A stretch of DNA of 54,161 nucleotides from Candidatus Gastranaerophilales bacterium (lineage in GTDB: Bacteria > Cyanobacteriota > Vampirovibrionia > Gastranaerophilales > Gastranaerophilaceae). The translations under genes and the position numbers were made by a program. Positions 4,765 to 38,955 of the stretch are shown here, one piece after another; positions within the stretch are counted from its first letter, which is position 1; each line of letters begins with the position of its first letter. The stretch covers positions 1 through 54,161 of the forward strand of contig CALUVW010000014.1 in assembly GCA_944324315.1 (NCBI GenBank), written 5' to 3'. The notes beneath the pieces are model-generated. The model was given only the letters and a program-made list of their open reading frames with translations. It did no database searches and was not told the origin of the DNA.

Positions 4765-4784
4765 CTTGTCTTCCGTTCACTGTT

Positions 4785-5033: not shown

Positions 5034-5044
5034 TACATAAATCC

Positions 5045-5648: not shown

Positions 5649-5702
5649 CGGTGCGGGGTGTGGGGATGCATAATCCCCACATAAAAATAACATATCTTAT
5701 GT

Positions 5703-6999: not shown

Positions 7000-7013
7000 G
7001 GTAACATATTATC

Positions 7014-8108: not shown

Positions 8109-8110
8109 AT

Positions 8111-17710: not shown

Positions 17711-17797
17711 CATTATATAAAATCTGCAAATAAATTATCTTGATGAAAATTAATATTTTTGATAAGATTTTTCAAAATTAACTCAAGGGGTACAAAT

Positions 17798-20765: not shown

Positions 20766-21848
20766 ATGGAAAAAAAGTTTCAGTACACAAAAATCGGAAT
20801 ACCCAGAGCAATATCATATTATAACAATTACCCTTTTTATTACGGATTCTTTAATTCGCTGGGAATCGAAGTTGTATTGTCAGATAAAACAACAACAAAA
20901 ACTATCAATGAAGGAACAAAATATGTGGTTTCCGATACATGCCTGCCGATAAAAGTTTATGTAGGTCATGTTGTTAATCTCCTTGATAAAGGTTGTGATG
21001 CAATATTCATACCGTCATTACAATCAACGGATTACAAGATTAATAATTGCAGCAAAATAAGAGGACTGCCAGAAATTATAAGAAATGTAATTGACCGTGA
21101 GTTTACTATGATTGAACCGACTCTGGACAAAACTGAAAATATCGGTTTGTATGATTTTTGTACACAAACTGCAAATGCCTGCGGTATAGACGACAAAAAA
21201 CAAATTAAAACTGCAATTGAAAATGGTTTTGAAATTTATAACAATTTTTTCAAAATGACCCAATCAGGAGTTTCTTATAATGAAGCTCTCGAAAATTCAA
21301 TAAATGGTAAATTTATCACACGGAGTGTTGATATTGTAAAACCTTTATCTGTGGTAATTATGGGACACGGTTACAACCTTTTTGACGAAAGAATTTCGCT
21401 TAATTTAATAAAAAAACTTGAAAAAATGGATGTTAAAGTCTATACCTCAATAAATGTTTCCCGTGAGTCATCTTTAAATGCCATAGAAAATCTCGGAGAA
21501 ATTCAATACTGGGCAAACGAGCTGGAATTAACAGGAACAGCAGCGCATTTTTTGTTAAATAAAAAAGTTGACGGAATTATTGCACTTTCAGCATTCGGCT
21601 GCGGTCCTGATTCACTGATGGTTGATGAGATTGCTTATCATTGCAAAGAAAGAAACATGCCTTTAATTCATTTAACAATTGATGAACATACTGGCGAAGC
21701 TGGTTTTATCACCAGAATAGAAGCTTTTGTTGACATGCTGATGAGAAAGAAACGTTCATTAATATCTAAAAAATCAAAACCTGCAGCAAAACCTGCCGAA
21801 ATTGTCACTCTTAATAAAGAAAAAATTCTTACAAGTGCCGTGAAATAA
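20766..21848 (+). CDS. CoA-substrate enzyme activase-related protein (DUF2229/HgdB-like fold), copy 1
   Basis: 360 residues. It starts KIGIPRAISYYNNYPFYYGF, the standard opening of the DUF2229 family (2-hydroxyacyl-CoA dehydratase-activase-related proteins). Conserved Cys candidates for a 4Fe-4S cluster are in VVSDTCLPIKVYVGH (near 60), NNCSKIRG (near 95) and ALSAFGCGPDSLMVDE (near 278). It also has the family-typical DEHTGEAGFITRIEAFVD. No ASKHA ATPase (BcrA/HgdC type), the usual partner of such proteins, is seen in the window. The last base of its TAA is the A of the next gene's ATG. A paralogue is at 22853-24013. Biological role unknown. Confidence 0.8.
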   Translation: MEKKFQYTKIGIPRAISYYNNYPFYYGFFNSLGIEVVLSDKTTTKTINEGTKYVVSDTCLPIKVYVGHVVNLLDKGCDAIFIPSLQSTDYKINNCSKIRGLPEIIRNVIDREFTMIEPTLDKTENIGLYDFCTQTANACGIDDKKQIKTAIENGFEIYNNFFKMTQSGVSYNEALENSINGKFITRSVDIVKPLSVVIMGHGYNLFDERISLNLIKKLEKMDVKVYTSINVSRESSLNAIENLGEIQYWANELELTGTAAHFLLNKKVDGIIALSAFGCGPDSLMVDEIAYHCKERNMPLIHLTIDEHTGEAGFITRIEAFVDMLMRKKRSLISKKSKPAAKPAEIVTLNKEKILTSAVK

Positions 21849-22831
21849 TGAAAAATCAATTATTTTATTACAAAGGTGCAATACATATTCATTCACAGTT
21901 TTCAGACGGGACGGGCAATATTTCAGAGATTGCAAAAGCCGCAAAAAAAGCCGGTCTTGATTGGATTATCATAACAGATCATAACAGTTTAGATATTGAT
22001 GAAGGAATTATCAACGGAGTTTGTGTTATCAGAGGTGAAGAAATTTCTCCTGAGTTTTCTAACCATTATCTTGCATTAGGAATTAAAAATTGTATTTCCC
22101 ACGACACAGATGCGCAAAAATATATTAATGCAGTAAGAAATCAGGGCGGATTTGGTTTTGCGGCACATCCTGATGAATCAAATTTCAGAAAAAACAGCGC
22201 AAAACCTATTAAATGGACGGATAAATCAATTGTTCCAGACGGTGTTGAAATATGGAACTGGTTTTCTGACTGGGCTGATAATTATGATGACACAAATATT
22301 CTTAAAATTGCATACGCATATTTATTCAGGCACAACCTTATAAGAGGTCCGCACCTTGAAACTCTTAAATGGTGGGATGATCTGAATAAAAATTCCACAA
22401 AAATTATACCTGCAATCGGTGGTGTAGATGCGCATGCACTGAAAATTTTCAAATATCTTGTGCCTGTTACAATTTTTCCTTATAAAATGTCATTCAAAAC
22501 TCTTACAAATATAATTACTCTAAACGAAAAAATACCTGAAAATTTTGAAGATAAAAAAAGGGTTATTTTAAATTCTTTGCGTGACGGAAACAATATAATT
22601 ATAAACAGGCATGTAAAAGATGAAATACCAATCATTAATATAAAAGAAAAAACTATTTTTATAAAACTGTCACAAACATCAAATATCAAAATTCTTCGTT
22701 ATGGCGAATATGTGTATGACGGTATTTCTAAAGATGTGGAATTTAAAATTGTTAAAAGCGGCAAGTATAGAATAGAAATTTATCTGAAAGGCAAACCCTG
22801 GATTTATTCAAATCCGATTATGGTTGATTAA
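21848..22831 (+). CDS. PHP-domain metal-dependent phosphoesterase
   Basis: 327 residues. The PHP motifs are clear: GAIHIHSQFSDGTGN (near 10-24), IITDHNSLD (near 39-47), Glu in IRGEEISPEF (near 61), FAAHPDESN (near 108) and GGVDAHALKIF (near 200). The C-terminal 70 residues are beta-rich and probably form a small sandwich. Members hydrolyse phosphoesters of nucleotides or nucleic acids, or 3',5'-nucleoside bisphosphates. It overlaps the upstream DUF2229 gene by 1 nt (TAATG) and lies 21 nt before the second DUF2229 gene. The link to those iron-sulfur proteins is not understood. Confidence 0.85.
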   Translation: MKNQLFYYKGAIHIHSQFSDGTGNISEIAKAAKKAGLDWIIITDHNSLDIDEGIINGVCVIRGEEISPEFSNHYLALGIKNCISHDTDAQKYINAVRNQGGFGFAAHPDESNFRKNSAKPIKWTDKSIVPDGVEIWNWFSDWADNYDDTNILKIAYAYLFRHNLIRGPHLETLKWWDDLNKNSTKIIPAIGGVDAHALKIFKYLVPVTIFPYKMSFKTLTNIITLNEKIPENFEDKKRVILNSLRDGNNIIINRHVKDEIPIINIKEKTIFIKLSQTSNIKILRYGEYVYDGISKDVEFKIVKSGKYRIEIYLKGKPWIYSNPIMVD

Positions 22832-22852
22832 ATTTGTGCTAGTATTATTTAT

Positions 22853-24013
22853 ATGAAAGCTGCTGAAAAACTCGAAAAAACGAAAATGGAAAATACAATT
22901 CCCACAAAAGACCGCATAATTGCATGGCCAAGAATGGGAAGAATTGATATTCCTTTGAAGGCTCTTCTTGTCTCTTTAGGCGCAAATGTCGTTATACCTC
23001 CAGCGAACAGTAATGAAGCTCTGGAATTAGGAGTAAGAAACAGTATTGAAGGTATTTGTCTGCCTTACAAACTTAATCTCGCAAATTATATTATGGCACT
23101 GGACAAGGGTGCAAATACTTTGATGATGTTTCAGGCACCAGGTTCCTGCCGTCTTGGAAATTACACCAAAATGGCTCAGAAAACATTAAAATCAATGGGC
23201 TATGATTTTGATATGGTAATTTTTGATATGTATAAAAGCAAGATGAAGCAGACGCTTCATGCTTTCTGGCATGTAACACATTGTATTAACCCATGGAAAT
23301 ATTACAAGGGATTTAGCTTAGGTTTTAACAAGTTTTTTGCAATAGATACAGCCGAAAGACTGTTATTTTATACAAGACCGAGAGAACTCCATAAAGGTGA
23401 TGCAGAAAGATGCTATGAAAAGTGGCTTAAAATTACAGATGAAACAAATTCCGTATGGAAAGCTAAAGGTTTAAAAAAACGAATAATAGAGGATTTCAAA
23501 AAAATTCCTATAAATAAAAATAAGGAAGTTCCCGTCATATATTTAATAGGAGAATTTTTTGTACTCCTTGATCCTTACACAAATCAAAATATCGAAAAAG
23601 AACTCGGGGAAATGGGTGTAGAAGTTCAGCGTCAGATAATGTTCGGCGACTGGCTTGAACATGTTTTGAAACCGTCGATTTTTTACCGTAAAGAATCCCA
23701 CCGCGAACGCAGTGTAAGATATTCTAAAGATTACATGAAACGTGCGATAGGCGGAGAATGTATTGAAACTATCGGCGATACTGTTTATGCTGCAAAACAC
23801 GGTATTGATGGAATTATACATATTTCTCCGTTTTCATGCATGCCGGAAATTGTAGCGCAAAATATCCTGCCGAAAGTCAGCCGTAAAGAAGATATTCCTG
23901 TAATGTCACTTGTTCTTGATGAACAGACTGGGAAAGCCGGCTACATAACCCGTATTGAAGCTTTTGTAGATCTTGTTAAAAGAAAAAAACGACAGAAAAA
24001 AATAAATTGTTAA
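22853..24013 (+). CDS. CoA-substrate enzyme activase-related protein (DUF2229-like), copy 2
   Basis: 386 residues, paralogous to 20766-21848 but divergent. Shared landmarks: IIAWPRMGRIDIPLKAL (near 22), ligand-like Cys in EGICLPYKLNLANY (near 64), GSCRLGNYTKM (near 91), GGECIETIGD (near 303) and HISPFSCMPEIVA (near 328), and the ending DEQTGKAGYITRIEAFVD. It is about 25 residues longer than copy 1. ATG at 22853 is the likely start; an ATG 11 codons later is possible. Together with copy 1 it could form a heterodimeric iron-sulfur protein of the HgdB/BcrB/double-cubane kind, which is inference. Confidence 0.78.
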   Translation: MKAAEKLEKTKMENTIPTKDRIIAWPRMGRIDIPLKALLVSLGANVVIPPANSNEALELGVRNSIEGICLPYKLNLANYIMALDKGANTLMMFQAPGSCRLGNYTKMAQKTLKSMGYDFDMVIFDMYKSKMKQTLHAFWHVTHCINPWKYYKGFSLGFNKFFAIDTAERLLFYTRPRELHKGDAERCYEKWLKITDETNSVWKAKGLKKRIIEDFKKIPINKNKEVPVIYLIGEFFVLLDPYTNQNIEKELGEMGVEVQRQIMFGDWLEHVLKPSIFYRKESHRERSVRYSKDYMKRAIGGECIETIGDTVYAAKHGIDGIIHISPFSCMPEIVAQNILPKVSRKEDIPVMSLVLDEQTGKAGYITRIEAFVDLVKRKKRQKKINC

Positions 24014-24051
24014 GTTATACTACTTATTAGTATCCGATTGGCTAATTTTTC

Positions 24052-24080
24052 TTGATTAGGCTCCTTATTCATGCTACGTT
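24052..24080 (+). promoter_or_regulatory. Candidate promoter upstream of a radical SAM gene
   Basis: TTGATT (24052-24057) and TACGTT (24075-24080) with a 17-nt spacer, about 45 nt before the ATG at 24126. The -10 match is poor. Confidence 0.35.
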
Positions 24081-24125
24081 AATAAAGTAAATTTTTCTGA
24101 GGAGTAAAATAATAAGAGGGTAGAG

Positions 24126-25205
24126 ATGATTACTAAAGAAAAGTCCGAAATTAAACATGAATCAAGAAATAAAATGACTTTTGAACGTTTAAAATATTAC
24201 AGACACTTAGGAGGCGGTGCACTTGAATGTATTGCAAGCCGTCTTTCGAAAACCCCAAAACCGTTGTGTTTTTCATTAATGGTTACAAGTATGTGTAACT
24301 GTGACTGCGATTTTTGTTACTGGAAATCTAAAAAAGGTCAGGATGATATGCCGACAGAAGAAATCGTAAGACTTTTGACGGAAGCCGGACAAATAGGTTA
24401 TATGGACAGTATTTTATGGGGCGGCGAACCGCTTTTAAGACAGGATTTTGCTGAAATTTGCAAGGCTTCGCATGACGCAGGGCTTTATACAAAAATTGCA
24501 ACAAACGGCTGGTATCTTGAAACAAATCCCGACTTTGCAAAATATACTGATTTGATGTTTGTATCACTTGACGCTATAGGAAAAGCTCATGATGATATCC
24601 GTCATATGCCGGGGATTTGCGATAAGGTTATGTCCGGTGTTGAATATCACAAAATTCATTCTCCAAAAATGAGAATTTATGTCTGCTGTACAGTATCAAC
24701 TCAAACTAACTTTGAGCAAATTAAAGAAGTTGCACAGTACTGTAAAGATGCTGATATTTTATTATACTTTACTGTTAATAAAGCTGCTTCAAGACCTGAT
24801 GAAGCCGAAAATGTTGTTGAAACAGAACTTGAAAATGACCAGTTATCAGAAATGTTTATAAAAATTAAAGAACTCAAAAAGCAAGGCTATCCGATTAGAA
24901 ATTCTTATTATTTCATGGATTACATTATTAATAAAAAAACATACTATGAATGCCACTGGCCGAGAATTGCTACAGTAATTTATTCAAATGGAGAAATGTT
25001 ACGCTGCTATGACAGAAAACCTTTTATCAGTGTCAGAAACAGACCTTTAAAAGACGTTATAAAAGATCCTCTGTTTATAGAAACGGTCAATAAATGTAAA
25101 GACTGCAAGCTTGCCTGTGTCGGAAACTATGCACTTGACGCATCAGGTTTGTGGAAACTTGAATGGCCTGCCATTAAATCTTTAATGGAAATTGCTATTA
25201 CATAG
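24126..25205 (+). CDS. Radical SAM protein with C-terminal Cys cluster
   Basis: 359 residues. The CX3CX2C radical-SAM cluster is C57, C61, C64 in TSMCNCDCDFCYWKS. The GGEP SAM-binding motif follows in ILWGGEPLLRQDFA (near 98). The C-terminal part has a SPASM/twitch-like set of Cys: YECHWPR, LRCYDRKP, KCKDCKLACVG (near 333-343). This is the layout of peptide- or lipid-modifying radical SAM enzymes with an auxiliary cluster. No short precursor-peptide gene is apparent next to it. It follows the DUF2229/PHP run after a 112-bp gap with a weak promoter. Substrate unknown. Confidence 0.85.
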   Translation: MITKEKSEIKHESRNKMTFERLKYYRHLGGGALECIASRLSKTPKPLCFSLMVTSMCNCDCDFCYWKSKKGQDDMPTEEIVRLLTEAGQIGYMDSILWGGEPLLRQDFAEICKASHDAGLYTKIATNGWYLETNPDFAKYTDLMFVSLDAIGKAHDDIRHMPGICDKVMSGVEYHKIHSPKMRIYVCCTVSTQTNFEQIKEVAQYCKDADILLYFTVNKAASRPDEAENVVETELENDQLSEMFIKIKELKKQGYPIRNSYYFMDYIINKKTYYECHWPRIATVIYSNGEMLRCYDRKPFISVRNRPLKDVIKDPLFIETVNKCKDCKLACVGNYALDASGLWKLEWPAIKSLMEIAIT

Positions 25206-25258: not shown

Positions 25259-27820
25259 ATGAAAAAAATATTTGCTTTATTATTGTTAACTATCTTTTGC
25301 TTTGAACCGGCAGCTTTTGCGATTGTTAATAATACCAATTCTCAAAGCCAAAATCAACAACAAATGAATGCACAGGTTCAGATGACTCAGGGGGCTGCTT
25401 ATTCAAACTACCAAATGCCTACAACCCAATATCAACCTCAGTCGCAAGCGGTATCTTCCAGATTAAGACAGGTGCAGAATGAAGAGGTTGAATTAAATAC
25501 AAATGCGTTCAGTAATAATTATCAGACTTCGCTGCAGACAAATTCGCAATTTTCAATGTTGAGTCCTATAGAAAAATTATTTAACGGCAAAGAAAGTGAA
25601 CTTACCGGTACTCCGTTACAGCAGGTTGGTTATGATTTATTCACATCAACAACTTCGTCCATGACCGGTACAACCGGTAAATTTGACAATAACTATAAAT
25701 TAAACATCGGTGAAAGAGTTAATGTATATTTATACGGTGATTCACTTGATGTAATGGCAATATCAGGAGCAAATCTTCTTAATCCAACAACAAAAACAGA
25801 AGTTGATTCCAAAGGAGCTATATTTATTCAAGGTGTTGGTTTGGTAAAAGCTGAAAACCGTACAATAAGCGAAGTTGAAAATGAAGCTAACCGTCTTGCC
25901 TCTCAAAAATATAAAAGTTTAAGGGTTAAATTAACGGTTGCATCAGGGCAGGAATTTTCGGTATTCGTCTACGGTCAGGTTACAAGACCTGGGAAAATTC
26001 TTGTAGGTAATAATTCCTCTGTGATGGATGCATTAAATGCCGCAGGCGGAGTTAAAAAGACAGGTACATTGAGAAATATTACCTATACATCTAACGGAAA
26101 ATCAAAATCCGTAGATCTTTATAAAGCTTTATTTTCGGGAAACGATGACGGCATTATTTTACGTCCCAACGACAAAATATTTGTAGATAAAATCGGCGAT
26201 GTTGTTGCAATTAAAAACGGTGTAACTGTTCCCGGTATTTATGAAATAAAAGAGGGTGAAAATCTCCAAAAAATAATAACATTTGCAGGAGGTCTCCTAC
26301 CTGCAACCCAGGTGACTGAAGTTACTTTGACCGGTCTTGATGCGACTTCAAAACAAAGAGTTGCACAAAATATTGCCTGGAATAATGCCAAAAATACCAA
26401 ACTAAAAAGCGGTGATGCCGTAGAGTTTAGAGAACTTTACAACACTGCAGAAAATATAGTAACAATTCAAGGTAATGTAAAACATCCCGCCACTTATGCA
26501 TACAAAGAAGGTATGAGATTATCTGATATTTTGAAAAGTGAAGATGAATTACTCGAAGAAACATTTATAAATCAAGCTGTTATCAGAAGAATTTCCGGTA
26601 AAGACAATTCTATTGAGACAATTCCTATTTTCTTGAAAGAGTTTTTTGCAGGCATGAATGACCCAGTACTTCAACCGAAAGATGTTATTAATGTTTATAA
26701 AAATACAAATTCAATGTTTGTTGATGTTTACGGGTGTATAAATATTCCAAAACATTTAACTTACACAACTAATATGACACTGAATGATGTGATGACAGAT
26801 ATTCAATTTTTGGAATCAGATGTCGATACAAAAACACCTGAAGAAACAAAAGAACCTGAAGTTTCGTATAAAGGCTCGGTTGAAGAAAATGATGTTCAAC
26901 TTGCTGGCGGAACGGCAAATTCAAATAAACTCATTCCTGCAGAAAATGTTGCTGTAGAAATTATAAGTTCAAGCGGTGCAACTCAGGTTTATTACCTTTA
27001 CGATATTATGATTAATTCAGATAGAATTAAATTAATTCAGATTATGCCTGATGACAAGATATTCTTTAGAACTCTGCGAGGAAACGAGGTTATGAAAACC
27101 GTTAAAGTTTCTGGCTTTGTAAAAAAACCTGGAATTTATACTTTTGTTGAAGGTAAAAGACTTGTTGATATGATAGAAATGGCAGGTGGTTTGACGCAGG
27201 AAGCAGATTTACGCGGAATAGTTTTTAAAAGAACAAATCTGCAAGGCAAACAGGTTGAACTTGCCCACAAAAACAACGAACGTGATATCAAACTTATTGA
27301 AGGTCGTATCGCAAGTGCATACAAGCCGACAGAAGGTGATCAAAAATCCAAAATGGATATGCTTGAAATGTTAAAAGCAGATGATTTGAATATTGCCGAC
27401 AAATACAACGGTCAAATTGCTCTTAATATTCAAAACAACAATTTAGACAAAATTAAAGACCTTGATAATATTGAAGTGCAGGATGGCGATGATATTTATA
27501 TTCCGAGAACATCAAACCATGTAAGTGTAATCGGAGAAGTTTATAACGAACAGTCATTCGTATTCAAAAAAGGTGCTAATGCTAAATATTATATTAAAGA
27601 AGTTGGCGGCTATACTCCTAACGCAAACAAATTCAGACTGTATAAAGTTTCAGTAAACGGACGTGCCGAAAAGATTTCTAACGGAAGTTCAATAGAACCC
27701 GGCGACACAATTGTAGTACCGAGAAGAATTGCCGGTAACGACTGGATTACACCTGTCTGCGACACTCTCAAAGGTATAGCATCAATTATTGTTATGGCAT
27801 TCGCTATCAATAAGTGGTAA
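25259..27820 (+). CDS. Wza-like outer-membrane polysaccharide export protein with multiple SLBB domains
   Basis: 853 residues, with AAGGGA before the ATG. Signal peptide MKKIFALLLLTIFCFEPAAFA, then a Gln/Asn-rich spacer (about 25-110), a polysaccharide-export (PES) domain near 145-230 (NIGERVNVYLYGDSLD...) and about six SLBB-like repeats. The clearest are FVYGQVTRPGKI, VPGIYEIKEGENL, IQGNVKHPATYAYKEG, VSGFVKKPGIYTFVEG and VIGEVYNEQSFVFKKG. A C-terminal hydrophobic segment (SIIVMAFAINKW) may insert in the outer membrane, as the Wza helix does. There is no lipobox Cys. It would form the export channel for the polymer made by the 30965-42690 operon. Confidence 0.88.
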   Translation: MKKIFALLLLTIFCFEPAAFAIVNNTNSQSQNQQQMNAQVQMTQGAAYSNYQMPTTQYQPQSQAVSSRLRQVQNEEVELNTNAFSNNYQTSLQTNSQFSMLSPIEKLFNGKESELTGTPLQQVGYDLFTSTTSSMTGTTGKFDNNYKLNIGERVNVYLYGDSLDVMAISGANLLNPTTKTEVDSKGAIFIQGVGLVKAENRTISEVENEANRLASQKYKSLRVKLTVASGQEFSVFVYGQVTRPGKILVGNNSSVMDALNAAGGVKKTGTLRNITYTSNGKSKSVDLYKALFSGNDDGIILRPNDKIFVDKIGDVVAIKNGVTVPGIYEIKEGENLQKIITFAGGLLPATQVTEVTLTGLDATSKQRVAQNIAWNNAKNTKLKSGDAVEFRELYNTAENIVTIQGNVKHPATYAYKEGMRLSDILKSEDELLEETFINQAVIRRISGKDNSIETIPIFLKEFFAGMNDPVLQPKDVINVYKNTNSMFVDVYGCINIPKHLTYTTNMTLNDVMTDIQFLESDVDTKTPEETKEPEVSYKGSVEENDVQLAGGTANSNKLIPAENVAVEIISSSGATQVYYLYDIMINSDRIKLIQIMPDDKIFFRTLRGNEVMKTVKVSGFVKKPGIYTFVEGKRLVDMIEMAGGLTQEADLRGIVFKRTNLQGKQVELAHKNNERDIKLIEGRIASAYKPTEGDQKSKMDMLEMLKADDLNIADKYNGQIALNIQNNNLDKIKDLDNIEVQDGDDIYIPRTSNHVSVIGEVYNEQSFVFKKGANAKYYIKEVGGYTPNANKFRLYKVSVNGRAEKISNGSSIEPGDTIVVPRRIAGNDWITPVCDTLKGIASIIVMAFAINKW

Positions 27821-27882: not shown

Positions 27883-28761
27883 TTACGAATTTGTGCAAAT
27901 ATCAGAATTAGAGAAAACTTTAACTGATTTAGGGATGATATTGATTTCAATGTCATTCTTAAATTTTGTTTTTTCTCCGTCAATATGTCCGGTTGTAAAA
28001 TCATTTTTTATCTTGAAATTGGATGTCTGAAAATACATAGCCTTTGAGCCAGAACTTTTTTTATCAAATATAATTTGCAAAAATTCAATAAAAAACATTA
28101 TCGGATTTTTTACTTTTAAAATAAAAATATCCAGAAGTCCGTCATTAAGTTCGCATTTTTGCGAGATTGAAAACAAATTCCTGAACATGTTGCCTGCATT
28201 TGCTGCAATTATACAGGTTGCAACGATTGACAGTTTTTTATCATCATAAGATATTGTGTAGTATTTTTGTTTAAGCCTTAATGCAAATAAAATTCCGGCA
28301 AGAAAATATGCAAAGTAGCCGAACCTGTTTTTTAATGACTGCGGAGTCTTGCAGATAATATCACTATCATACCCGAGTCCAAATCTCAAAATGGAATATG
28401 TGTCATTGATTTTTAATGTGTCAATATCACTAATTTTACCGCTTTCTATAACTTTTAAAGCCTTATTCACATCTGACGGTATTTGCAATTTTGCTGCCAG
28501 AAGGTTTGCCGTACCTGAGGGGATTATTCCTATAACTTTGTCGCTATTAATAACGTAAGGAATAATTTTATTTACTGTTCCGTCCCCTCCGATTACAAAA
28601 ACTGTGTCAAATTCTTCAAATGCAGTACTTTCAACTTCATCAATCCCTATGCACTTAAATTTGATATGTTTCCCGAACAAAAATTTTATTACTGATTTTT
28701 TATATTTCAGCGCCTGACGCCTTCCGGAATGTGGATTGTTCACAACAAGTACATTTTTCAT
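27883..28761 (-). CDS. Diacylglycerol/lipid kinase family protein (YegS/DagK type)
   Basis: 292 residues. Diagnostic motifs: VVNNPHSGRRQALK at the N-terminus, VFVIGGDGTVNKII (near 54-67) for nucleotide binding and GIIPSGTANLLAAKLQIP (near 78). The C-terminal half carries LNDGLLDIFIL and HIDGEKTKF, typical of the family. It phosphorylates diacylglycerol or a related lipid at the membrane. It is convergent with the export-protein gene and 103 bp from a divergent radical SAM gene. Confidence 0.9.
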   Translation of the reverse strand: MKNVLVVNNPHSGRRQALKYKKSVIKFLFGKHIKFKCIGIDEVESTAFEEFDTVFVIGGDGTVNKIIPYVINSDKVIGIIPSGTANLLAAKLQIPSDVNKALKVIESGKISDIDTLKINDTYSILRFGLGYDSDIICKTPQSLKNRFGYFAYFLAGILFALRLKQKYYTISYDDKKLSIVATCIIAANAGNMFRNLFSISQKCELNDGLLDIFILKVKNPIMFFIEFLQIIFDKKSSGSKAMYFQTSNFKIKNDFTTGHIDGEKTKFKNDIEINIIPKSVKVFSNSDICTNS

Positions 28762-28864: not shown

Positions 28865-30391
28865 ATGAGAGTAGAAAAACAATCAACAGTATGGCAGCCC
28901 AATTCAATGGGAAGGTTTGATAAACTTAAATTGAAGGTAAATGATTTTGCGATAGATATGCTGTTGAACTATTTAGGAAATAATTTCAGCAAGGAAAAAT
29001 TGATAAACCTCGCCAAAATTTTTGAGAAAATATCAGGTTCAAAAGGCGGTATAAACCATGCAAGAAGAATGCAGTGGCTTTTCAAATCCGAACATCCACA
29101 CCTTTTGTGGTGGAAAAAGATTTTAACAGAGCTTGATCCTAATTGCAGAAATAAATGGATTAAAAATTTCTTTGTAAACGGTTATTACGGCGATAATTTA
29201 AGAAAACGCACCGAATTTAATGAGAAAAACGGATTTTTCCCGCCGACAGTTTTGCTTGCAAGTATTACAAAACGCTGCAATTTTAACTGCAAAGGCTGCT
29301 GGGCGCATGAATATGATGTTAAAGAAGATTTGTCAAAAGAAAAATGGAGAGAAATTTTCACCGAAGCCCGTGATGTTATGGGTATTCATATAATCCCTGT
29401 TGTAGGCGGCGAACCTTTTGCAAGAAAAGAGTTTCTTGAACTTGCGGAGGAATTTAACGACTGTACGTTTATAACCTTTACAAACGGCTCATTGATTACC
29501 GAAAAAACAGTAGAAAAATTGAAAAAACTCGGTAATGTTCAGCCTATGTTTTCTATCGGCGGTTTGAAAGAAAATACCGATGCCGTGAGAGGTGAAGGCT
29601 GCTTTGATATGGTTATGGAAAAAATGGACATGCTCAAAAAAGCAGGAATTTTCTTCGGTGCAAGTATTACAGCTACAAGTCAGAACTGCGACGAGGTTAC
29701 CTCTGATGAATTTATGAAAATGTTATCTGACAAAGGAGTTCTTTGGGCATGGTTTTTCCACTACGTTCCGGTCGGCGACAGTCCTGATGTAAGTATGGTT
29801 CCAAATGCTCAACAAAGACAACAAATTTTGAAAGCCGTATATAATGCAAGAAACACTCTTCCTATGATGACAGTAGATTTCTGGGGTGACGGTCCTGAAA
29901 TGATGGGATGTATTGCAGGCGGCAGACAGTATATTCACGTTAACCCGAGAGGTGATGTTGAGCCTTGCACATTTGTCCACCTTGCAACTCATAACCTTAA
30001 AGACTGCACGTTGACAGAAGCTCTGGCATCTCCTTTTATGCAAGCAATAAGAGATGGTATCCCATACGAAGACGGCAATATGTTACGCCCCTGTATGATT
30101 GTTGACAGACCTGAAGTGCTGCGTAAATATTATGAACAATTCAAACCTTACGAAACACACGAAAATGCTGCAGCTTATTTAACAAATCCCGAAATTACAT
30201 CAAAAATTGACAAATATTCTAAAGATGTAAAAGAAATTCTGGATAAAGACTGGAGAGAAAACCTCTGGATGACAATATTCCCGCTTGAAGGCGAATATTA
30301 TGTTGATAGAGATCATTTCTGCTCAAAAGATAAGCCGTCTTTAAAACCGTCAGAAAAATGCGAGGGCAAATGCGCATGCTGCGTAAAATAA
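28865..30391 (+). CDS. Radical SAM enzyme with C-terminal Cys-rich tail
   Basis: 508 residues. The ribosome-binding site GAGGAG precedes the ATG. A 125-residue N-terminal helical region comes before the radical SAM cluster C138, C142, C145 (TKRCNFNCKGCWAHEYD), VVGGEPFARKEF (near 179) and ITFTNGSLI. The C-terminal region has SPASM-like Cys (PRGDVEPCTFVHLATHN, near 365; NMLRPCMIVDRPE) and ends in a Cys-rich tail, KCEGKCACCVK, whose codons overlap the next gene. The downstream partner is a PAP2 phosphatase, and a lipid kinase is divergent, so a lipid substrate is possible. Confidence 0.85.
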   Translation: MRVEKQSTVWQPNSMGRFDKLKLKVNDFAIDMLLNYLGNNFSKEKLINLAKIFEKISGSKGGINHARRMQWLFKSEHPHLLWWKKILTELDPNCRNKWIKNFFVNGYYGDNLRKRTEFNEKNGFFPPTVLLASITKRCNFNCKGCWAHEYDVKEDLSKEKWREIFTEARDVMGIHIIPVVGGEPFARKEFLELAEEFNDCTFITFTNGSLITEKTVEKLKKLGNVQPMFSIGGLKENTDAVRGEGCFDMVMEKMDMLKKAGIFFGASITATSQNCDEVTSDEFMKMLSDKGVLWAWFFHYVPVGDSPDVSMVPNAQQRQQILKAVYNARNTLPMMTVDFWGDGPEMMGCIAGGRQYIHVNPRGDVEPCTFVHLATHNLKDCTLTEALASPFMQAIRDGIPYEDGNMLRPCMIVDRPEVLRKYYEQFKPYETHENAAAYLTNPEITSKIDKYSKDVKEILDKDWRENLWMTIFPLEGEYYVDRDHFCSKDKPSLKPSEKCEGKCACCVK

Positions 30392-30987
30392 TAATTTTGG
30401 CGGCAATATTCTTGTTATTAACCTCTTTGATAATCTTCTGTCCTGTTGTAACTCAATGGGACAGAAGTTTAATAATGTTTGTACAAAATCATCTCTCATT
30501 TCTACCATTATGGATTCCTATGCTCCCTGACTGTATTTTATACAGCATAATGATATTAATTCCTATTGCGGGTTTTGGAATATTTTTTATTAAAAATCGA
30601 CTCTGGAAAGATTTGATACTTTTCTCTTCAGTTCCGCTTGTGACGTTTTTGCTTAATTGTATTTTAAAATCGCTTGTTCACCGCGCCCGTCCGCCGCTTG
30701 AATATCAAATTACATCAATACATCCGGATAGTTTCAGCTATGTATCAAGCCACAGTTTAGTTACAATTTGTTTGTGGGGCATGGTTATATTTTATTTGAA
30801 CAAATATTGTACAAATCGTGTTTTAAAGATTGTCGTGATAAGTGTTTCAACTTTATGGATATTATTTGTCGGACTGAGCCGTGTGTGGCTTGGCGTACAC
30901 AATCCAACAGATGTTATTGGTGCTTATGTGCTTGGATTAACTTTAATAAATATATACCTTAATATTAGATTAAAACTTCCTGACTGA
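30376..30987 (+). CDS. PAP2-family lipid phosphatase
   Basis: About 203 residues from ATG 30376 (MLRKIIILAAIFLLL); ATGs at 30358 and 30370 are also in frame. The PAP2 triad is present: KSLVHRARPP (KX6RP), SSHSLVTIC (in place of PSGH) and SRVWLGVHNPTDVIGAY (SRX5HX3D). About five to six membrane helices. It dephosphorylates lipid phosphates such as undecaprenyl pyrophosphate or phosphatidic acid. It overlaps the radical SAM gene by 16-34 nt and overlaps Wzz tail to tail by 23 nt. Confidence 0.9.
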   Translation: MLRKIIILAAIFLLLTSLIIFCPVVTQWDRSLIMFVQNHLSFLPLWIPMLPDCILYSIMILIPIAGFGIFFIKNRLWKDLILFSSVPLVTFLLNCILKSLVHRARPPLEYQITSIHPDSFSYVSSHSLVTICLWGMVIFYLNKYCTNRVLKIVVISVSTLWILFVGLSRVWLGVHNPTDVIGAYVLGLTLINIYLNIRLKLPD

Positions 30988-32332
30988 TTTTTTTGTTCAT
31001 CTCCGAAAGCATTGTTTTAATCTGTTTATATAGTTTTGAACTTGTTTTTCCTACAGTCGCAAATATAACTATTTCTTCAGAATTTTTTATATTTTGAACA
31101 AATTCTTCCGTAATATCAGCTTTCACAAGATTAACATTTTTAAACTCTCTTAACTGTTCAACTGTATCTTGCGGAATATTTTCAAAAACTGCAATTGAAA
31201 CTTTTTTATCCTGATTTGCGAGAAGAAATAACTTCAAATCAGAAAAATCATTTTCTAAATTATAAATAATATTGTCACCGAGCATTGAATAAGTAAGTTT
31301 TTTATCTGTATTTTCAGCAAAAATTACGGCAAATAAAGAAGCCAAAAAACCAAATACAATACCTAACAAAATATTCATCAAGAGCTTTGGGGATGAATAT
31401 TCAAAATCTCTGAGTTTTTGGGGTTCTTTAAGTACCAGAACCTTTGAAGAATCCGACATTTCATCAACCATTTTAGCCCATTCAAGTTTAGATGACAGCG
31501 CAGCAACTTTTTCTGCCTCTTCTGTGACGGCAATTCTTGATTTTTGTCCTGCAACAATCTGACCTTTAAGGTTTGACATTGCCTGCTGTGCTGATTTTGA
31601 AAAAGCACTCATCGCAGATAAACCGCCGGTCGCAGCTGCCGCCTGCTCAGGCAAACCGCTAACAGCATTCATTTTCTGGTTTAATGCTTTTTTAGCTTTA
31701 TTATATTCAGTTTCAATAACTTTTTTATCAGATTTAGACTTTTCACTGTTAAGTTGCTTATGCAGTTCAACATAGTTGTTTATAATTGAATTAACAACAT
31801 TATAAGCAAGTTCAGGATCTTTTGATTTATATTCAATTGTTATAACATTAGTTCCTTTCTTATTTTCGAAAGAAACATTTTTCTTCAAAAACGACTTTGT
31901 AGAAATGTATTCGCCCTCTTTTTTGTTAGGAAATATCCCGAACAGTTTTTTACAAACCAGATTATTTTCCCTGATAACTTTATCAATTACAAGTGGGGAC
32001 TGCATAAGCTCAAGTTCGTTTGTCAAAGCTCCGCCGCTACCTGCCATCAGTGCCGCCATTCCACCGCCGGCACCAAGTTCTTCTATAGCATAAGGATTTA
32101 TTTCCATCATGTTAGAATTATTTGCCTTGTTAATATATAAATCAGATTCAACTACGTATTTTTTTGTAGCAATAAATGTTGAAAGGATCGTTAAAGCAAA
32201 TATTATAGAAAAAACTTTAACAATTAATCCCTTTTTACTCCAAATCATGAGAGCTATTTTCTTTAAGTCAATAGTTAAATCTTCGTCCAATTCATCAGTA
32301 GGACAGTAGTAATTTAATTTTTGTTGTTCCAT
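30965..32332 (-). CDS. Wzz/Wzc-type chain-length regulator without a kinase P-loop
   Basis: 455 residues, AAAGGAG before the ATG. The Wzz pattern: a cytoplasmic N-terminus, TM1 near 33-52, a large periplasmic coiled region (GGGMAALMAGSGGALTN... then long helices to about 300), TM2 near 325-345 (LLMNILLGIVFGFLASLFAVI). The 105-residue cytosolic tail resembles the start of a BY-kinase domain but has no Walker A, no Walker B and no Tyr cluster. It controls polymer length with the SLBB exporter and Wzy. It is the last gene of the polysaccharide operon. The tail may be a pseudo-kinase. Confidence 0.85.
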   Translation of the reverse strand: MEQQKLNYYCPTDELDEDLTIDLKKIALMIWSKKGLIVKVFSIIFALTILSTFIATKKYVVESDLYINKANNSNMMEINPYAIEELGAGGGMAALMAGSGGALTNELELMQSPLVIDKVIRENNLVCKKLFGIFPNKKEGEYISTKSFLKKNVSFENKKGTNVITIEYKSKDPELAYNVVNSIINNYVELHKQLNSEKSKSDKKVIETEYNKAKKALNQKMNAVSGLPEQAAAATGGLSAMSAFSKSAQQAMSNLKGQIVAGQKSRIAVTEEAEKVAALSSKLEWAKMVDEMSDSSKVLVLKEPQKLRDFEYSSPKLLMNILLGIVFGFLASLFAVIFAENTDKKLTYSMLGDNIIYNLENDFSDLKLFLLANQDKKVSIAVFENIPQDTVEQLREFKNVNLVKADITEEFVQNIKNSEEIVIFATVGKTSSKLYKQIKTMLSEMNKKISQEVLI

Positions 32333-33600
32333 GAGTTCTCCTTTATGGTTAATAATTTATATTTTTTAACGTAATAAATTCTATGTAAAAACATTATTAT
32401 ATATGTTGCGGCAAATATATATGATACGGTGTAAAGACTTAAAGTTTTAGTAAAATACAGTAATAATATCCCCAAAATGTGGAAAATACCCCCTATTATC
32501 CAACATTGATTAGTTTCTTTAATATAACCAAAAGCTCCCAATAATGGAAACGATAAGATGTCAGCAAGAATATGAAAGGGAATTATAATCGCAAATATTT
32601 TCAAAATCTTGTAGCTTTCAAACATTTGGTAGCCATAAAATATTGTAATTATTAATTTTGAAAAGAAAAATATTATAATAGAAAGCGCTAAACTGAAAAC
32701 AATTAATATTTTAAATACTTTTTTAAAAAATTTGATATCTTTATTTTTAGACATATAGGGGAAAAATGCATTATAAAATGGATAGTATATAAAATAGATT
32801 GCTAAATATATTTTTTGCGCAGAAGTATAATATGCAACCATCGTTGCAGTTGTGCATAAGCCTAAAACAAAGGTATTTGTACTTTGATATAAACCTATTG
32901 ATATACTACTTAGAAAATATTCACTACTATCATTGAATTTTTGTACTAATTGTTTTACTTGAGGAAAATAGATTTTAACTTTAAATTTTGAAATTATTGT
33001 GTAAAAACTTATTATTCCAGCGACAAGAAGCCCCAATGAATTAAATAAAGGTACCAGTATATAATTATCAGGAGTTTTCACGAATGTAAAAATACAAATT
33101 AATGAAATTATGCGAGTAATAACGTTAAATACTGTTATAAATTTCATTTTTTCTATTCCTTGAAAAAACCAAGGAGAAAGAAATAAGTTACCTATAACTG
33201 TCAAGAATGTAAAATAATAAAGTAACCAATCAGAACGAAATTTGTTAAAGCTAAAAATTATTATAGATAGGAATAGAAAACTCGTTATTAATAATCCAAA
33301 TTTTACGAAAAAAATCGAATTAAAAATTTCATTTACTTTTTGGCTGTCGTCCCTATTAATAGCCAATTCTCTAACACCGGATTGATTAAATCCAAAATCT
33401 ACGAATCTGGTAATGTAGTCAATGCAAGCTTGAGCAAAGAATATTAAACCAAATTTGTCTACCGATAAGACTCTAGCTAAATATGGTAATGTAATAAAAG
33501 GGATTGCATAGTTAAGAATTTGTATAATTCCCAATGCAGTGAAATTTTTGAATATAGTTTTCTTTTCATTGGATATTTTTTTAACTTTATCTATAAACAT
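32314..33600 (-). CDS. Wzx-type oligosaccharide flippase (MOP superfamily)
   Basis: 428 residues with about 12 hydrophobic helices. Typical Wzx opening: NFTALGIIQILNYAIPFITL followed by PYLARVLSVDKFGLI. It flips undecaprenyl-linked repeat units across the inner membrane. It overlaps Wzz (19 nt) and the acyltransferase gene (14 nt), so translation is coupled. The codons are strongly AT-rich, more so than in the housekeeping regions of this window. Confidence 0.93.
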   Translation of the reverse strand: MFIDKVKKISNEKKTIFKNFTALGIIQILNYAIPFITLPYLARVLSVDKFGLIFFAQACIDYITRFVDFGFNQSGVRELAINRDDSQKVNEIFNSIFFVKFGLLITSFLFLSIIIFSFNKFRSDWLLYYFTFLTVIGNLFLSPWFFQGIEKMKFITVFNVITRIISLICIFTFVKTPDNYILVPLFNSLGLLVAGIISFYTIISKFKVKIYFPQVKQLVQKFNDSSEYFLSSISIGLYQSTNTFVLGLCTTATMVAYYTSAQKIYLAIYFIYYPFYNAFFPYMSKNKDIKFFKKVFKILIVFSLALSIIIFFFSKLIITIFYGYQMFESYKILKIFAIIIPFHILADILSFPLLGAFGYIKETNQCWIIGGIFHILGILLLYFTKTLSLYTVSYIFAATYIIMFLHRIYYVKKYKLLTIKENSWNNKN

Positions 33601-34648
33601 TTGTTAACCCTTTACCTAAAATTACTGGTGCATGTTTCCCTATAAATTTTATAGCACAATAATTTATTACGAGATTTATAATTGATATTCCCAAAACCAT
33701 GCAAATATTAATTATTATATTAGTATGCAAAATATTTAAATTATAATATCCGGACCAGTGAATGAAAAAATTTATAAGCCAGTGAAAAAATATTATAAAT
33801 AAAGTGTTTTTTGAAATTGTATTTATAAAATCATTTGTTGTTTTGAATAGTAAAGAAAGACAAATCACCATGTATGTCCCAACAAAACCTGAAATAAATA
33901 AAAGAGATAATGAGTGTATTCCAAATAGAGATGTTGTAATAATATCAAATTGTGCGTAAGAATTATAATAAATTAAATATAATAGTAATAATAAACTTAT
34001 TATTATTGAAAAAATAATTAATTTTTTATTTTTTGACAAGTAAGTAAATATATCAACTGGACAGTAATTTTTTATTAAATATCCTAGCAAAAAATAAGGT
34101 ATTGCCATAATTGTATTATCTAAACAAAATAATAAATTGATTTTATTAATAATTAATATTTTTAAAATTAAAATACAAATTATTGAGACAAAAATAATAT
34201 TTTTGATGCTGAGTTTTATAAAATTAACAAAAAATCTTAATATAATCATTGTAAAAATAAACCAACAAGGTCCACAAACTGGGATAAAAAAACTATACAG
34301 GTTGGTTGTATCTCCGAGGCAAATTCCTAACAAGCATTTGGGTAAGACTTCCCAAAAAGACATATCGTGAAAAACAATTTTGTTTAAAACAACAAAGGGT
34401 AAATATGTAAATTGATAAATCAAATATGGAATTAACAAACTCCAATATATTTTAGACATGTTTTGTGAAAAAAATTTTTGTTTGTACAAATATCCGGAAA
34501 CAATAAAAAACATTGGCATAAAAAATAATTGGATAAAATCAAATATATATTTATTTATTCCAGAATGTGTAATAATTACCAAAAATATTCCGATAAATTT
34601 AACATAATCTATCCACAAAATATTATCTGTTTGCAAAGTCTTTCTCAC
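33587..34648 (-). CDS. Membrane acyltransferase, family 3 (OatA/Atf3-like)
   Basis: 353 residues, about 10 membrane helices. The family-3 motif is at the N-terminus: ILWIDYVKFIGIFLVIITHS, with the active-site His in ITHSG, and SGYLYKQKFF follows (near 50). It would O-acetylate (or otherwise acylate) sugars of the repeat unit on the periplasmic side. It overlaps the flippase gene by 14 nt and lies 9 nt downstream of the GT-like gene. Very AT-rich. Confidence 0.88.
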   Translation of the reverse strand: MRKTLQTDNILWIDYVKFIGIFLVIITHSGINKYIFDFIQLFFMPMFFIVSGYLYKQKFFSQNMSKIYWSLLIPYLIYQFTYLPFVVLNKIVFHDMSFWEVLPKCLLGICLGDTTNLYSFFIPVCGPCWFIFTMIILRFFVNFIKLSIKNIIFVSIICILILKILIINKINLLFCLDNTIMAIPYFLLGYLIKNYCPVDIFTYLSKNKKLIIFSIIISLLLLLYLIYYNSYAQFDIITTSLFGIHSLSLLFISGFVGTYMVICLSLLFKTTNDFINTISKNTLFIIFFHWLINFFIHWSGYYNLNILHTNIIINICMVLGISIINLVINYCAIKFIGKHAPVILGKGLTNVYR

Positions 34649-34657
34649 TTATTCCTC

Positions 34658-35806
34658 CTAATGTAACGGTGCGATATATTGTGTATATAGATTTTTAACA
34701 GATTCTTCTATGTTAGGGATTCGTTTTACTGGATCTAATTGCGCATATCCCCAGTACATATTGCCAATATTTCTTAATTTGTTTGTTGAACCCTTAAAAT
34801 GGTTTACGTTTTTTACAATCGGATTTATTTTACACACGGGCGATAAGATATCTGCCCAAAACTTAGGATTCCAATAATCCTCAAAAATACTTATATAACA
34901 ATTTTCTTCAAATGCTACATCAACATTAAACAGTGGTTTAAATAAGTATTCTATTTCTTTTTTAAAATATTTAGCTTCATACAATACACTTGTCGATATT
35001 CCAATTACTTTTTTTATCTTATCAGAAGCTAAAAGACCATATGTAGAACGATTTTTTAATAATTCAATATATGGCGATTTATTTACCCAATCATAAATTA
35101 CTTTTCGTTTTTTCCCTAAATAAGGATGTGGTAAATAATATATTTTAGAATATTGTTTTGATAATTCTTTTAATTTGTCACCAAAATGAGTAACATTTAA
35201 AAATTGACCATTGTTATCAATAGATTTATCTATTAATGTTTGTCCGATAAATAAACATGAATTGTCTTCTAAATCCTCATCCTGTATTATATTTTCGTAT
35301 CCCATAAAAATTTTCCAATAATTTGCATAATAATAAAATTTTTCTTCAGGAATTTGATATTTAATTAACTCATTGTATATATTTTTATCATTTGTGTATA
35401 CTCCAAAGGCCAAGTCATCAAATAATTTGTATGGGTGATAAGCAAAGTCAATTATTTTACATCCGAAAGATGTTAATAATTTTGAAAATTTTTCATATAA
35501 TTCAAAACCAATAATAATATCACCTTTATGGAAAAAACTTTCAAGATACTCTAATTGTTTCTCATTAAAATCTTCTATATTATAATCATTATAACGCGAT
35601 TTTGTCAAAGGATTATTACCTAATTCATAGAAAAATTTTCTTGAAAAAAGTTGGGATTTTTCATTGATTAAATCAAAAGTTATTTCTATATTATTATCAA
35701 TGCTACTTTTTATTATTGGTAAAAATATTTTTTGATAGGGCATTACTTTTTTTTGTTTGTAATCCAAATCATGATATAAAATGTCATCAATAAAAACTAT
35801 TCTCAT
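34658..35806 (-). CDS. Putative GT-B-like polysaccharide biosynthesis protein
   Basis: 382 residues, soluble. I do not recognise a named family. Features resemble capsular GT-B enzymes: SCLFIGQTLIDKSI (near 188), IYYLPHPYLGKKR (near 227, an HP motif as in Kdo or sialyl-type capsule transferases) and KKVIGISTSVLYEAKYF (near 266). Its place between an acyltransferase and a HAD-containing protein in a Wzx/Wzy operon supports a sugar transferase that modifies the repeat unit. AAATAGGAGAA before the ATG is a good ribosome-binding site. Confidence 0.55.
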   Translation of the reverse strand: MRIVFIDDILYHDLDYKQKKVMPYQKIFLPIIKSSIDNNIEITFDLINEKSQLFSRKFFYELGNNPLTKSRYNDYNIEDFNEKQLEYLESFFHKGDIIIGFELYEKFSKLLTSFGCKIIDFAYHPYKLFDDLAFGVYTNDKNIYNELIKYQIPEEKFYYYANYWKIFMGYENIIQDEDLEDNSCLFIGQTLIDKSIDNNGQFLNVTHFGDKLKELSKQYSKIYYLPHPYLGKKRKVIYDWVNKSPYIELLKNRSTYGLLASDKIKKVIGISTSVLYEAKYFKKEIEYLFKPLFNVDVAFEENCYISIFEDYWNPKFWADILSPVCKINPIVKNVNHFKGSTNKLRNIGNMYWGYAQLDPVKRIPNIEESVKNLYTQYIAPLH

Positions 35807-35822
35807 AAAATTCTCCTATTTC

Positions 35823-37514: not shown

Positions 37515-38955
37515 TAGTTTCTCCTTTTATTGAGATACTACTTTCTTTTTTGTTTTGAGATTGAAGTATGATTGCTAAAGATATACCACAAATAAAAAAC
37601 AAGTACTCATCAACAAAACCTTGAGTGTATATCAAAGAAATAATAAATATTGTTAAAATAATTTTGAGTAATCCTAATATAAAATCGTACTGAATTCCGT
37701 GAAATCTGTTCTTAACTTTGTTTAAAATATTATGAATTCTTATCATAAAAAGACAGTAGAGTGCAAAACCAATAATGCCGGTTTGGTACAATAGTAAATA
37801 CATTGCATTTGAAGTAATTGTTAAGGTTTTAGTAGCATTTTGTAAATTTATTTGCATTTCTATTGTTAGAGGAATATTCGATGTTAAATAATGTTGAATT
37901 AAAATCCAACCAGTATTTCCGAACCCAACTCCGAGCAGAGGATGCTTTAAAAACAGTGTGAATTGATTTATATAATTAATTATCCTTGTTGCAAGGGAAG
38001 GTTCTACTAATATTATAGTGTCCAAAGTGAATTTAGGTATAATTTCTATTACATTCAAAATTCGAATTAGATATGTTTGTGATAAATCCAAAGACATTAC
38101 AAAAGTAAATATTAGAGTTCCAACAAATATTGTTAAAAGAACAGTAATAAAAATGCATGTTTTTTGTAAGAATATAATAATATTTTTATAAAAATATATT
38201 ATTGTAATAAAAAGTGCCAAAATTAAAAATATTGGAGATTGTGTTAAAACCAAACTAATCCATACCATAATTACCATGTATTTTTTAGTCAAATTATTAA
38301 ACAGTTTATTTTTGAAAACAGCATATCTTGATCTCGTTAAGTTGTATATCATAGGTAAGTTTATGGTTAAAAATTTAGCAAATGCTGCGGGTTCCATAAA
38401 AAAACTTCGGATTCTTGGTAGTCCACTTCTAGTTTCAATTATTATTGATAAGTCTTTGTCTCTAATATTTGAAAAAAAAGATATAAAGTTTTGAATTATA
38501 TCGATATTAAAATAAACGCCAACAAATTCTATGAAACCAACAAGTAAAATAGTAAGATATGCAATCATAAAAAATTTAATGATATTGTTAAAAGTTATAC
38601 ATTTAGGAAATACTAAAGAAGGATATATGGCAAATAAAAAAATTCTAAATATAACAAGAATAACAGCTACAATAATGAATCTACTAAACGAATAATATCC
38701 TACTGTAACTGCACAAAGACCGGATATTAAAATGTATACATATAAATAGACCAAATATTTAAAAGGAGTTTTTTTGTATAAATAATAAATTTGTCTAATT
38801 ATTTTTGTTGGTGATTTCAGAAGTAATATAGATATTGACAAGAAAATTACAATTATAGACAATGGGAAAAAAGTTGTTTCGGATAGAAATAAAACAAACG
38901 AAGGTAAAAATATAAATATAAAGGGTAATAAAGTAAAATATTTTATATTTATCAC
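37507..38955 (-). CDS. Wzy/O-antigen ligase-type polymerase
   Basis: 482 residues, 11-12 hydrophobic helices. A larger periplasmic loop contains the Wzy_C-type pattern KHPLLGVGFGNTGWILIQHY (near 335), preceded by TRIINYINQF. This is the typical signature of O-antigen polymerase/ligase proteins. It polymerises lipid-linked repeat units at the periplasmic face. It overlaps the tandem GT gene by 4 nt and the HAD gene by 8 nt. Very AT-rich. Confidence 0.85.
   Translation of the reverse strand: MINIKYFTLLPFIFIFLPSFVLFLSETTFFPLSIIVIFLSISILLLKSPTKIIRQIYYLYKKTPFKYLVYLYVYILISGLCAVTVGYYSFSRFIIVAVILVIFRIFLFAIYPSLVFPKCITFNNIIKFFMIAYLTILLVGFIEFVGVYFNIDIIQNFISFFSNIRDKDLSIIIETRSGLPRIRSFFMEPAAFAKFLTINLPMIYNLTRSRYAVFKNKLFNNLTKKYMVIMVWISLVLTQSPIFLILALFITIIYFYKNIIIFLQKTCIFITVLLTIFVGTLIFTFVMSLDLSQTYLIRILNVIEIIPKFTLDTIILVEPSLATRIINYINQFTLFLKHPLLGVGFGNTGWILIQHYLTSNIPLTIEMQINLQNATKTLTITSNAMYLLLYQTGIIGFALYCLFMIRIHNILNKVKNRFHGIQYDFILGLLKIILTIFIISLIYTQGFVDEYLFFICGISLAIILQSQNKKESSISIKGETNE

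Follow-up and report, generated by a model that had tools for sequence, protein, structure and literature searches.

Why should two DUF2229 proteins, a PHP hydrolase and a radical SAM enzyme be encoded side by side in a bacterium of an uncultured gut order? The question is raised by four co-directional genes at positions 20766–25205 of the window, by which we mean the whole analysed stretch of 54,161 nucleotides from a contig (C14; CALUVW010000014.1) of a 1.88 Mb genome of a Candidatus Gastranaerophilales bacterium (GCA_944324315.1). The genes code for DufA, the PHP-domain protein (PHP), DufB and the radical SAM enzyme rSAM. An earlier note made from the sequence had recognised this set, which open reading frames and Pfam bear out, and had suggested for it an uncharacterised low-potential redox or cofactor-modification pathway. 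The four genes are a real, conserved, accessory block in a new setting. It is well supported that they form the constant 5′ block of a Wzx/Wzy-type surface-polysaccharide locus; Wzz, a second radical SAM enzyme (rSAM2), a PAP2 phosphatase and a lipid kinase are its constant 3′ block. As to function we prefer a reading to which we give a probability of roughly 45%, namely that an ATP-driven ketyl-radical-type reductase, both radical SAM enzymes and the PHP hydrolase together produce a portion of the exported polysaccharide that does not vary, probably the lipid end.

Conservation and setting of the four genes

Gene order was surveyed at 61 loci with a DufA gene of the window type (DufA1), found among 80 relatives kept of 97; most relatives carry the label Candidatus Gastranaerophilales, the rest that of an uncultured bacterium or a wrong name. 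The survey detects only close DufA relatives and barely samples other phyla. PHP comes next after DufA1 in 58 of the 61 loci, DufB follows in 54 of these 58, rSAM in 49 of these 54 and a Wza-like gene in 46 of these 49. Contig ends explain three of the four cases in which DufB is missing, two of the five for rSAM and all three for Wza. True exceptions are L045, L055 and L063 (no PHP), L030 (no DufB) and L008, L017 and L018 (no rSAM adjoining DufB), and in L022 and L027 the rSAM–Wza pair is inverted. The median gaps for the pairs DufA1–PHP, PHP–DufB, DufB–rSAM and rSAM–Wza are 3, 12.5, 17 and 39.5 nt (56, 54, 46 and 44 gene pairs, respectively). In the window the corresponding spacers after PHP are 21, 112 and 53 nt; the 21-nt gap had been noted before, and the supposed 1-nt gap between DufA and PHP is in fact a 1-nt overlap. 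Genes upstream of the block vary among the loci, while the block and the downstream Wza gene stay. A promoter/terminator scan gave counts like those of shuffled sequences (37 vs 35.2; 6 vs 4.7), and no terminator-like site was seen on the + strand between 20766 and 27820.

A search of the phylum covered 292 genomes and yielded DufB relatives in 132, of which 131 belong to the window's order. An orthologue of the window's gene (DufB1; at least 75% identity, E < 1e-200) is present in 32 of the 131, and the remainder have, with few exceptions, only the paralogue DufB2 (about 39–44% identity). Of the 131 matching genomes in the order 99 lack the set, and the 21 genomes of the window's genus divide into 10 positive and 11 negative ones. 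Since it is missing from so many genomes of the same genus and order, the block is accessory. The earlier note had proposed neighbourhood conservation in close relatives as a check: gene order is indeed kept in the relatives that carry the genes, and it is the genes themselves that half of the congeneric genomes lack.

Co-occurrence was followed in 80 Gastranaerophilales genomes, comprising all 32 DufB-positive genomes and 48 of the 99 others (taken in list order, plus G212). The genes for rSAM, the Wza-like protein and rSAM2 are each present in 32/32 positive and 0/48 negative genomes. PHP is found in 32/32 versus 1/48, the exception being G212; the lipid kinase in 31/32 versus 0/48, with the miss in the fragmented assembly G258; and a WbaP-type transferase in 31/32 versus 2/48, certain of these matches being weak. 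A self-contained pathway is not what these counts describe, as Wza, WbaP, rSAM2 and the lipid kinase are, with few exceptions, present and absent in the same genomes as the block. On a tree of the activator gene described below (60 genomes) the presence label requires at least 18 changes; shuffled labels give a mean of 20.2 and a minimum of 14 (500 shuffles). As the observed number is close to that of shuffled labels, the locus has been gained or lost many times, be it by horizontal transfer or by repeated loss. Nevertheless, the distances of DufB, rSAM and PHP track those of the activator gene (Mantel r 0.61, 0.69 and 0.54 in 30, 25 and 29 genomes), while presence is scattered on this single-gene tree.

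The window locus contains WbaP, Wzx, Wzy-like, Wzz and Wza genes (Table 1), although the Wzy-like protein stays below the Pfam cut-off (Wzy_C, 29.3 vs 31.7 bits). Its plan is DufA–PHP–DufB–rSAM–Wza, variable sugar genes, and Wzz–rSAM2–PAP2–lipid kinase. When ten regions selected from the 32 DufB-positive genomes were compared with it, rSAM2, PAP2 and the lipid kinase were side by side in all ten and a Wzz-like gene was close in eight. In three regions that show both ends, only 2 of 23 open reading frames in the centre from WbaP to Wzz have a homologue in the window, whereas WbaP, Wzz and rSAM2 are 59–64%, 67–72% and 85–91% identical to the window proteins. Constant ends with a serotype-like variable centre make this a capsule-type locus plan. 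In several loci a PlsC-type acyltransferase is part of the constant section (by Pfam for one member, by eye for two). Wzx/Wzy loci for capsule or exopolysaccharide share with this one Wza, Wzz, Wzx, Wzy-like, WbaP, glycosyltransferases, constant ends and a variable centre; unlike in the usual loci, the constant ends here add the HGD-type reductase pair, PHP, two radical SAM genes, PAP2 and the lipid kinase.

The association extends beyond the window's family. Within that family (f1) rSAM is 83–98% and rSAM2 85–99% identical. In a second family (f40; G337, G349) one such locus contains DufB, rSAM, Wza, WbaP, rSAM2, lipid kinase, PAP2 and Wzz (identities 60%, 65%, 50%, 48%, 75%, 45%, 34–35% and 46%). 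In four of the 32 positive genomes (G006, G012, G063, G258) the set is complete yet split over distant sites. Genes resembling ETF-quinone oxidoreductase (ETF, electron transfer flavoprotein; FixC/FixX-type) lie near rSAM–Wza in G063, G012 and G258 (L149:9330-10924, L151:4542-6166 and L152:3395-4986; Pfam matches for the L149 copies of G063). They possibly supply electrons, or are chance neighbours.

Table 1. Genes of the polysaccharide locus in the window
Feature	Coordinates	Strand	Remarks
DufA, DUF2229/HGD-D protein, 'Red1'-like subunit	20766..21848	+	360 aa; open reading frame and Pfam
PHP-domain metallohydrolase, CehA/McbA-like, with an extra C-terminal part past the PHP domain	21848..22831	+	327 aa; Pfam, NCBIfam
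DufB, divergent DUF2229-type protein, 'Red2'-like subunit	22853..24013	+	386 aa; open reading frame, Pfam, predicted fold
rSAM, radical SAM enzyme	24126..25205	+	359 aa; Pfam
Wza-like outer-membrane polysaccharide export protein (Poly_export, SLBB domains)	25259..27820	+	
DAGK/YegS-type lipid kinase	27883..28761	-	between Wza and rSAM2
rSAM2, second radical SAM/SPASM-type enzyme	28865..30391	+	508 aa
PAP2 phosphatase	30358..30987	+	Pfam
Wzz chain-length determinant	30965..32332	-	
Wzx-type flippase	32314..33600	-	Polysacc_synt 164.6 bits
Locus-specific sugar genes: acyltransferase-3, HAD-domain protein, Wzy-like membrane protein, glycosyltransferases	33587..41327	-	
WbaP-type initiating sugar-phosphate transferase (Bac_transf)	41320..42690	-	

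The reductase pair and its companion enzymes

DufA is recognised by the Pfam models DUF2229 (169.7 bits) and HGD-D (33.8 bits). DufB narrowly clears the cut-off of DUF2229 (34.5 vs 29.4 bits) and stays below that of HGD-D (26.3 vs 28.4 bits). An hhalign comparison (probability 99.4, E 5.2e-21) confirms what the earlier note had said, that the two are divergent homologues. The three DUF2229 matches in the window genome have open frames of 362–384 aa, close to the 386 aa of DufB. The cysteines C59, C95 and C279 of DufA are invariant in 59/59 sequences, as are C69, C144 and C329 of DufB in 62 sequences, with C99 kept in 98% of these. HGD, benzoyl-CoA reductase (BCR) and double-cubane cluster protein (DCCP) reductases have three conserved cysteines per subunit as cluster ligands, and by conservation C59/C95/C279 of DufA and C69/C99/C329 of DufB fit this pattern as putative ligands. 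The structure model of DufB (predicted local distance difference test, pLDDT, 84.6) has as best match HadC (Z 14.6, root mean square deviation 4.7, 296 aligned residues), next to DCCP (Z 14.0) and benzoyl-CoA reductases (Z 13.8–14.0; 13.9–14.0 for the BzdNO type); the top ten matches by Z (10.7–14.6) are all of the HGD/BCR/DCCP family. Thus DufB is predicted to have the fold of 2-hydroxyacyl-CoA dehydratases, benzoyl-CoA reductases and DCCP, and the modelled fold favours the low-potential Fe–S type that had been proposed for the pair. We regard DufA/DufB firmly as a low-potential Fe–S reductase pair of the HadBC/BCR/DCCP-type family. With HadBC, BzdNO and DCCP the pair has cysteine-rich Fe–S subunits in common, and DufB its predicted fold, but identities are 9–15% and no CoA pathway genes lie nearby. 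Among plasmid records nine match DufA and six match DufB; six regions were examined.

Such a pair needs an activator. As the earlier note had said, none is nearby: a BcrAD_BadFG ATPase was not found on contig C14. The cell nevertheless has one, since a single full-length match (168.8 bits) is encoded on contig C9, and a BadF/HgdC-type activator gene is present in 80/80 genomes tested. With an activator encoded elsewhere in the genome the DufA/DufB pair could be powered. The window genome also has a scattered core set of DufA2, DufB2 and activator (G000:C2, L088:8943-10019; G000:C11, L089:4016-5158; G000:C9, L087:7854-8903). DufA1 and DufA2 are 55% and DufB1 and DufB2 40% identical, which makes the window pair look paralogous, within the order, to the core pair.

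The substrates known for characterised relatives of DufA/DufB are acyl-CoA, aromatic acyl-CoA or acyl esters. Apart from a pair in G013 (31% identical to DufA and 35% to DufB), the closest relatives outside the order are found in Monoglobus pectinilyticus, in a trio annotated as acyl-CoA dehydratase activase-related / 2-hydroxyacyl-CoA dehydratase / acyl-CoA dehydratase activase, which we take to be of the COG3580/3581/1924 type. The identities are 34% for DufA (WP_102365312, the nearest by sequence), 33% for DufB and 52% for the activator. In Monoglobus the trio is contiguous with its activator and the stretch has no PHP or radical SAM gene, whereas here the activator is unlinked. PlsA/PlsR and Ger are reported to turn glycerolipid esters into enol ethers or alkyl ethers (PMC12838417, PMC13274423, PMC8788747), and in PMC13274423 the role of stand-alone DUF2229 pairs without an activation domain is called unclear. 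PlsA/PlsR of Clostridium perfringens and Ger share with our system DUF2229/HGD-D-type regions in Red1–Red2 order, an ASKHA activator and an anaerobic host. In five of six PlsA-like proteins or gene pairs DufA aligns with the first reductase region, DufB with the second one or with the next gene; the sixth, from Paraclostridium, has a single region matched by both. In PlsA/PlsR the activation domains are fused ahead of Red1, whereas here three separate, partly unlinked genes are found, with a PHP gene between the reductases, a polysaccharide-locus setting and 22–29% identity. Among the matches listed in our literature searches we found no description of this locus. In one search COG3580 and COG3581 occurred in none of the 20 matches listed of 1,436, in another Gastranaerophilales in none of the 15 listed of 19, and for DUF2229 there was one unrelated paper.

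The PHP enzyme matches PF02811 (42.1 bits) and misses the curated cut-off of the CehA/McbA model NF038032 (75.6 vs 80 bits). Its metal-site residues H13, H15, D20, D44, H45, E52, H73, H107, D194 and H196 are each conserved in 97% or more of 63 sequences. A CpsB-type tyrosine phosphatase was considered and rejected, as hmmscan gave PF02811 alone. The genome G212, of another family, encodes a relative (39–42% identity, L148:8221-9252) without the rest of the block; it adjoins a YhcH/YjgK/YiaL gene and an aldolase-like gene and no lipid genes. This neighbourhood hints at a possible sugar-related ancestry of the PHP enzyme.

Apart from its PF04055 match (47.0 bits), rSAM has a CX3CX2C motif (C57, C61, C64) and five invariant C-terminal cysteines (276, 294, 324, 327, 331), and it is far below the cut-off of TIGR03961, the PTO1314 radical SAM family (110.7 vs 306.05 bits). 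Its structure model is poor (pLDDT 64.6), with a mixture of radical SAM enzymes as Foldseek matches. It matches the cytosylglucuronate decarboxylase BlsE (44.8 and 47 bits; TM 0.58/0.63), and MoaA, SuiB, SkfB and anSME about equally well. In rSAM2 the motif lies at C138, C142 and C145, with further conserved cysteines (8 sequences), and Tes (7tol), considered along with Mss as a possible lipid-joining counterpart, matches over the radical SAM core only (residues 128–262, 21.6 bits). On plasmids rSAM and PHP have only distant matches. Relatives of rSAM2 occur on plasmids of Klebsiella pneumoniae and Escherichia albertii (33–34% identity over 84–91%; L155:7076-8377, L156:2254-3633), where they are annotated merely as radical SAM protein. 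The surrounding stretches contain replication, insertion-sequence and other genes and no annotated polysaccharide genes, and so give no hint for the role of rSAM2.

Possible roles of the block

What could these enzymes do together? DufA and DufB would assemble as a heterodimer in which each subunit holds one [4Fe-4S] cluster, and the single BadF/HgdC-type ATPase, probably shared with the core DufA2/DufB2, would inject low-potential electrons into it at the cost of ATP. Such electrons would allow the pair to turn an acyl or ester carbonyl into a ketyl-type radical, as happens to glycerolipids with PlsA/PlsR and Ger. Later steps on the same invariant building block might then fall to PHP and the radical SAM enzymes. 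This building block would most likely be the glycerolipid or lipid-carrier end, on which the variable polysaccharide is built before it exits via Wza. Since the sugar genes vary and the block does not, its target would be expected in a section of the polymer that is always the same. The best candidate for this section is a lipid anchor or carrier, given that acyl groups are what the characterised relatives reduce and that lipid kinase, PAP2 and sometimes PlsC are constant. Concerning substrate and product of the block, we infer a lipid substrate. A more detailed version appears rather doubtful: a split PlsA-like ketyl-radical reductase, served by the shared activator, would turn an anchor acyl ester into an ether or enol ether, the two radical SAM enzymes would modify or join chains, and the variable polysaccharide would be anchored thereby. 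If true, this would be a new way of building a glycan anchor.

Several observations weigh against our reading. DufA1 is found without an adjacent PHP or DufB gene in 3 of 61 loci, and in the stretches examined of G337 and G349 (family f40) DufB had neither DufA nor PHP beside it. WbaP sometimes sits away from the locus. Gain and loss of one contiguous block would yield much of the co-occurrence pattern, and the four split genomes, all from one positive clade, do not attest co-loss after unlinking. The nearest solved relatives of rSAM work on peptides, nucleosides or sugars, and PAP2 and the kinase could merely recycle the undecaprenyl carrier. DufA and DufB are only 22–29% identical to PlsA-like proteins and closer to the stand-alone Firmicute pair (33–34%). 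In sequence searches of the PDB the DufB profile had no match at E 0.01 and the DufA profile only a weak one (best E 0.082). In the structure comparison the next match of the DufB model, the unrelated lumazine synthase (Z 9.8, covering the C-terminal part only), comes near the lowest family row at 10.7.

The main rival explanation, on the whole unlikely, is that sugar is what the radical enzymes act on: next to the carrier, where the polysaccharide is invariant, they would make an unusual deoxy- or otherwise reduced sugar, and PHP would take off a phosphate or ester. Every gene lies inside a polysaccharide locus, rSAM matches BlsE, and the PHP relative of G212 is found near aldolase-like and YhcH/YjgK/YiaL genes, away from lipid genes. 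Nevertheless, the similar matches to MoaA, SuiB, SkfB and anSME and the poor model weaken the case from BlsE, and the acyl-CoA, aromatic acyl-CoA and acyl ester substrates known for characterised DufA/DufB relatives do not suggest a sugar. In addition, lipid kinase and PAP2 would be left unexplained. Less probable again is a role in bulk membrane lipid, in which the block would supply a special kind (plasmalogen, alkyl ether or cross-linked lipid) and travel with the locus without acting on the polysaccharide. Such a role would suit the lipid kinase, PAP2 and PlsC-type genes close by and the homology to plasmalogen-synthase-like and Ger-type reductases described in the papers cited above. However, genomes without the locus already carry the core DufA2/DufB2/activator set, which could serve bulk lipid, and the block keeps its tight tie to Wza, Wzz and WbaP through many presence/absence changes.

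Least probable is an artefact of linkage, the genes being passengers of the polysaccharide block with an unrelated redox or cofactor role. Block gain and loss, and split genomes from one clade, are what it would predict; against it stand the retention of the set in 4/32 genomes in spite of the split, the constancy of block and downstream Wza next to varying upstream neighbours, the strong conservation of rSAM and rSAM2 within f1, and the conserved link in f40. For cofactor modification, which the earlier note had offered, we found no support: no cofactor gene is constant in the neighbourhood, and we rejected this pathway.

Our preferred reading, an invariant part of the polysaccharide made by the block, suggests that Gastranaerophilales, cyanobacterial relatives living in the gut, use oxygen-sensitive radical enzymes to build part of their surface sugar coat. 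To our knowledge, ATP-driven low-potential reductases are so far known from acyl-CoA, aromatic and phospholipid reduction; if the reading is true, they would here be tied to surface-polysaccharide assembly in an uncultured gut order, and a function would come within reach for stand-alone DUF2229 pairs. DufB, rSAM and rSAM2 would also provide a genetic marker that separates coat-positive from coat-negative strains within a genus, so that the role of the coat would be testable by strain comparison.

Other features of the window

Directly upstream of DufA, at 17759–20689, a PHP-type N-terminal region is fused to a UvrD-type helicase; it scores 190 bits against TIGR00375, below the cut-off of 326.6. 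The genes at 2642–10523 code, according to Pfam, for a thioesterase, an AMP-binding enzyme, an acyltransferase, ketoacyl synthases, an ApeP-type dehydratase and a FabG-like reductase, and this region looks like an aryl-polyene-type cluster. Beyond the polysaccharide locus, at 44630–48682, a row of similar small membrane-protein open reading frames of about 150 aa (44630, 46212, 47476 and 48218) was seen by eye.

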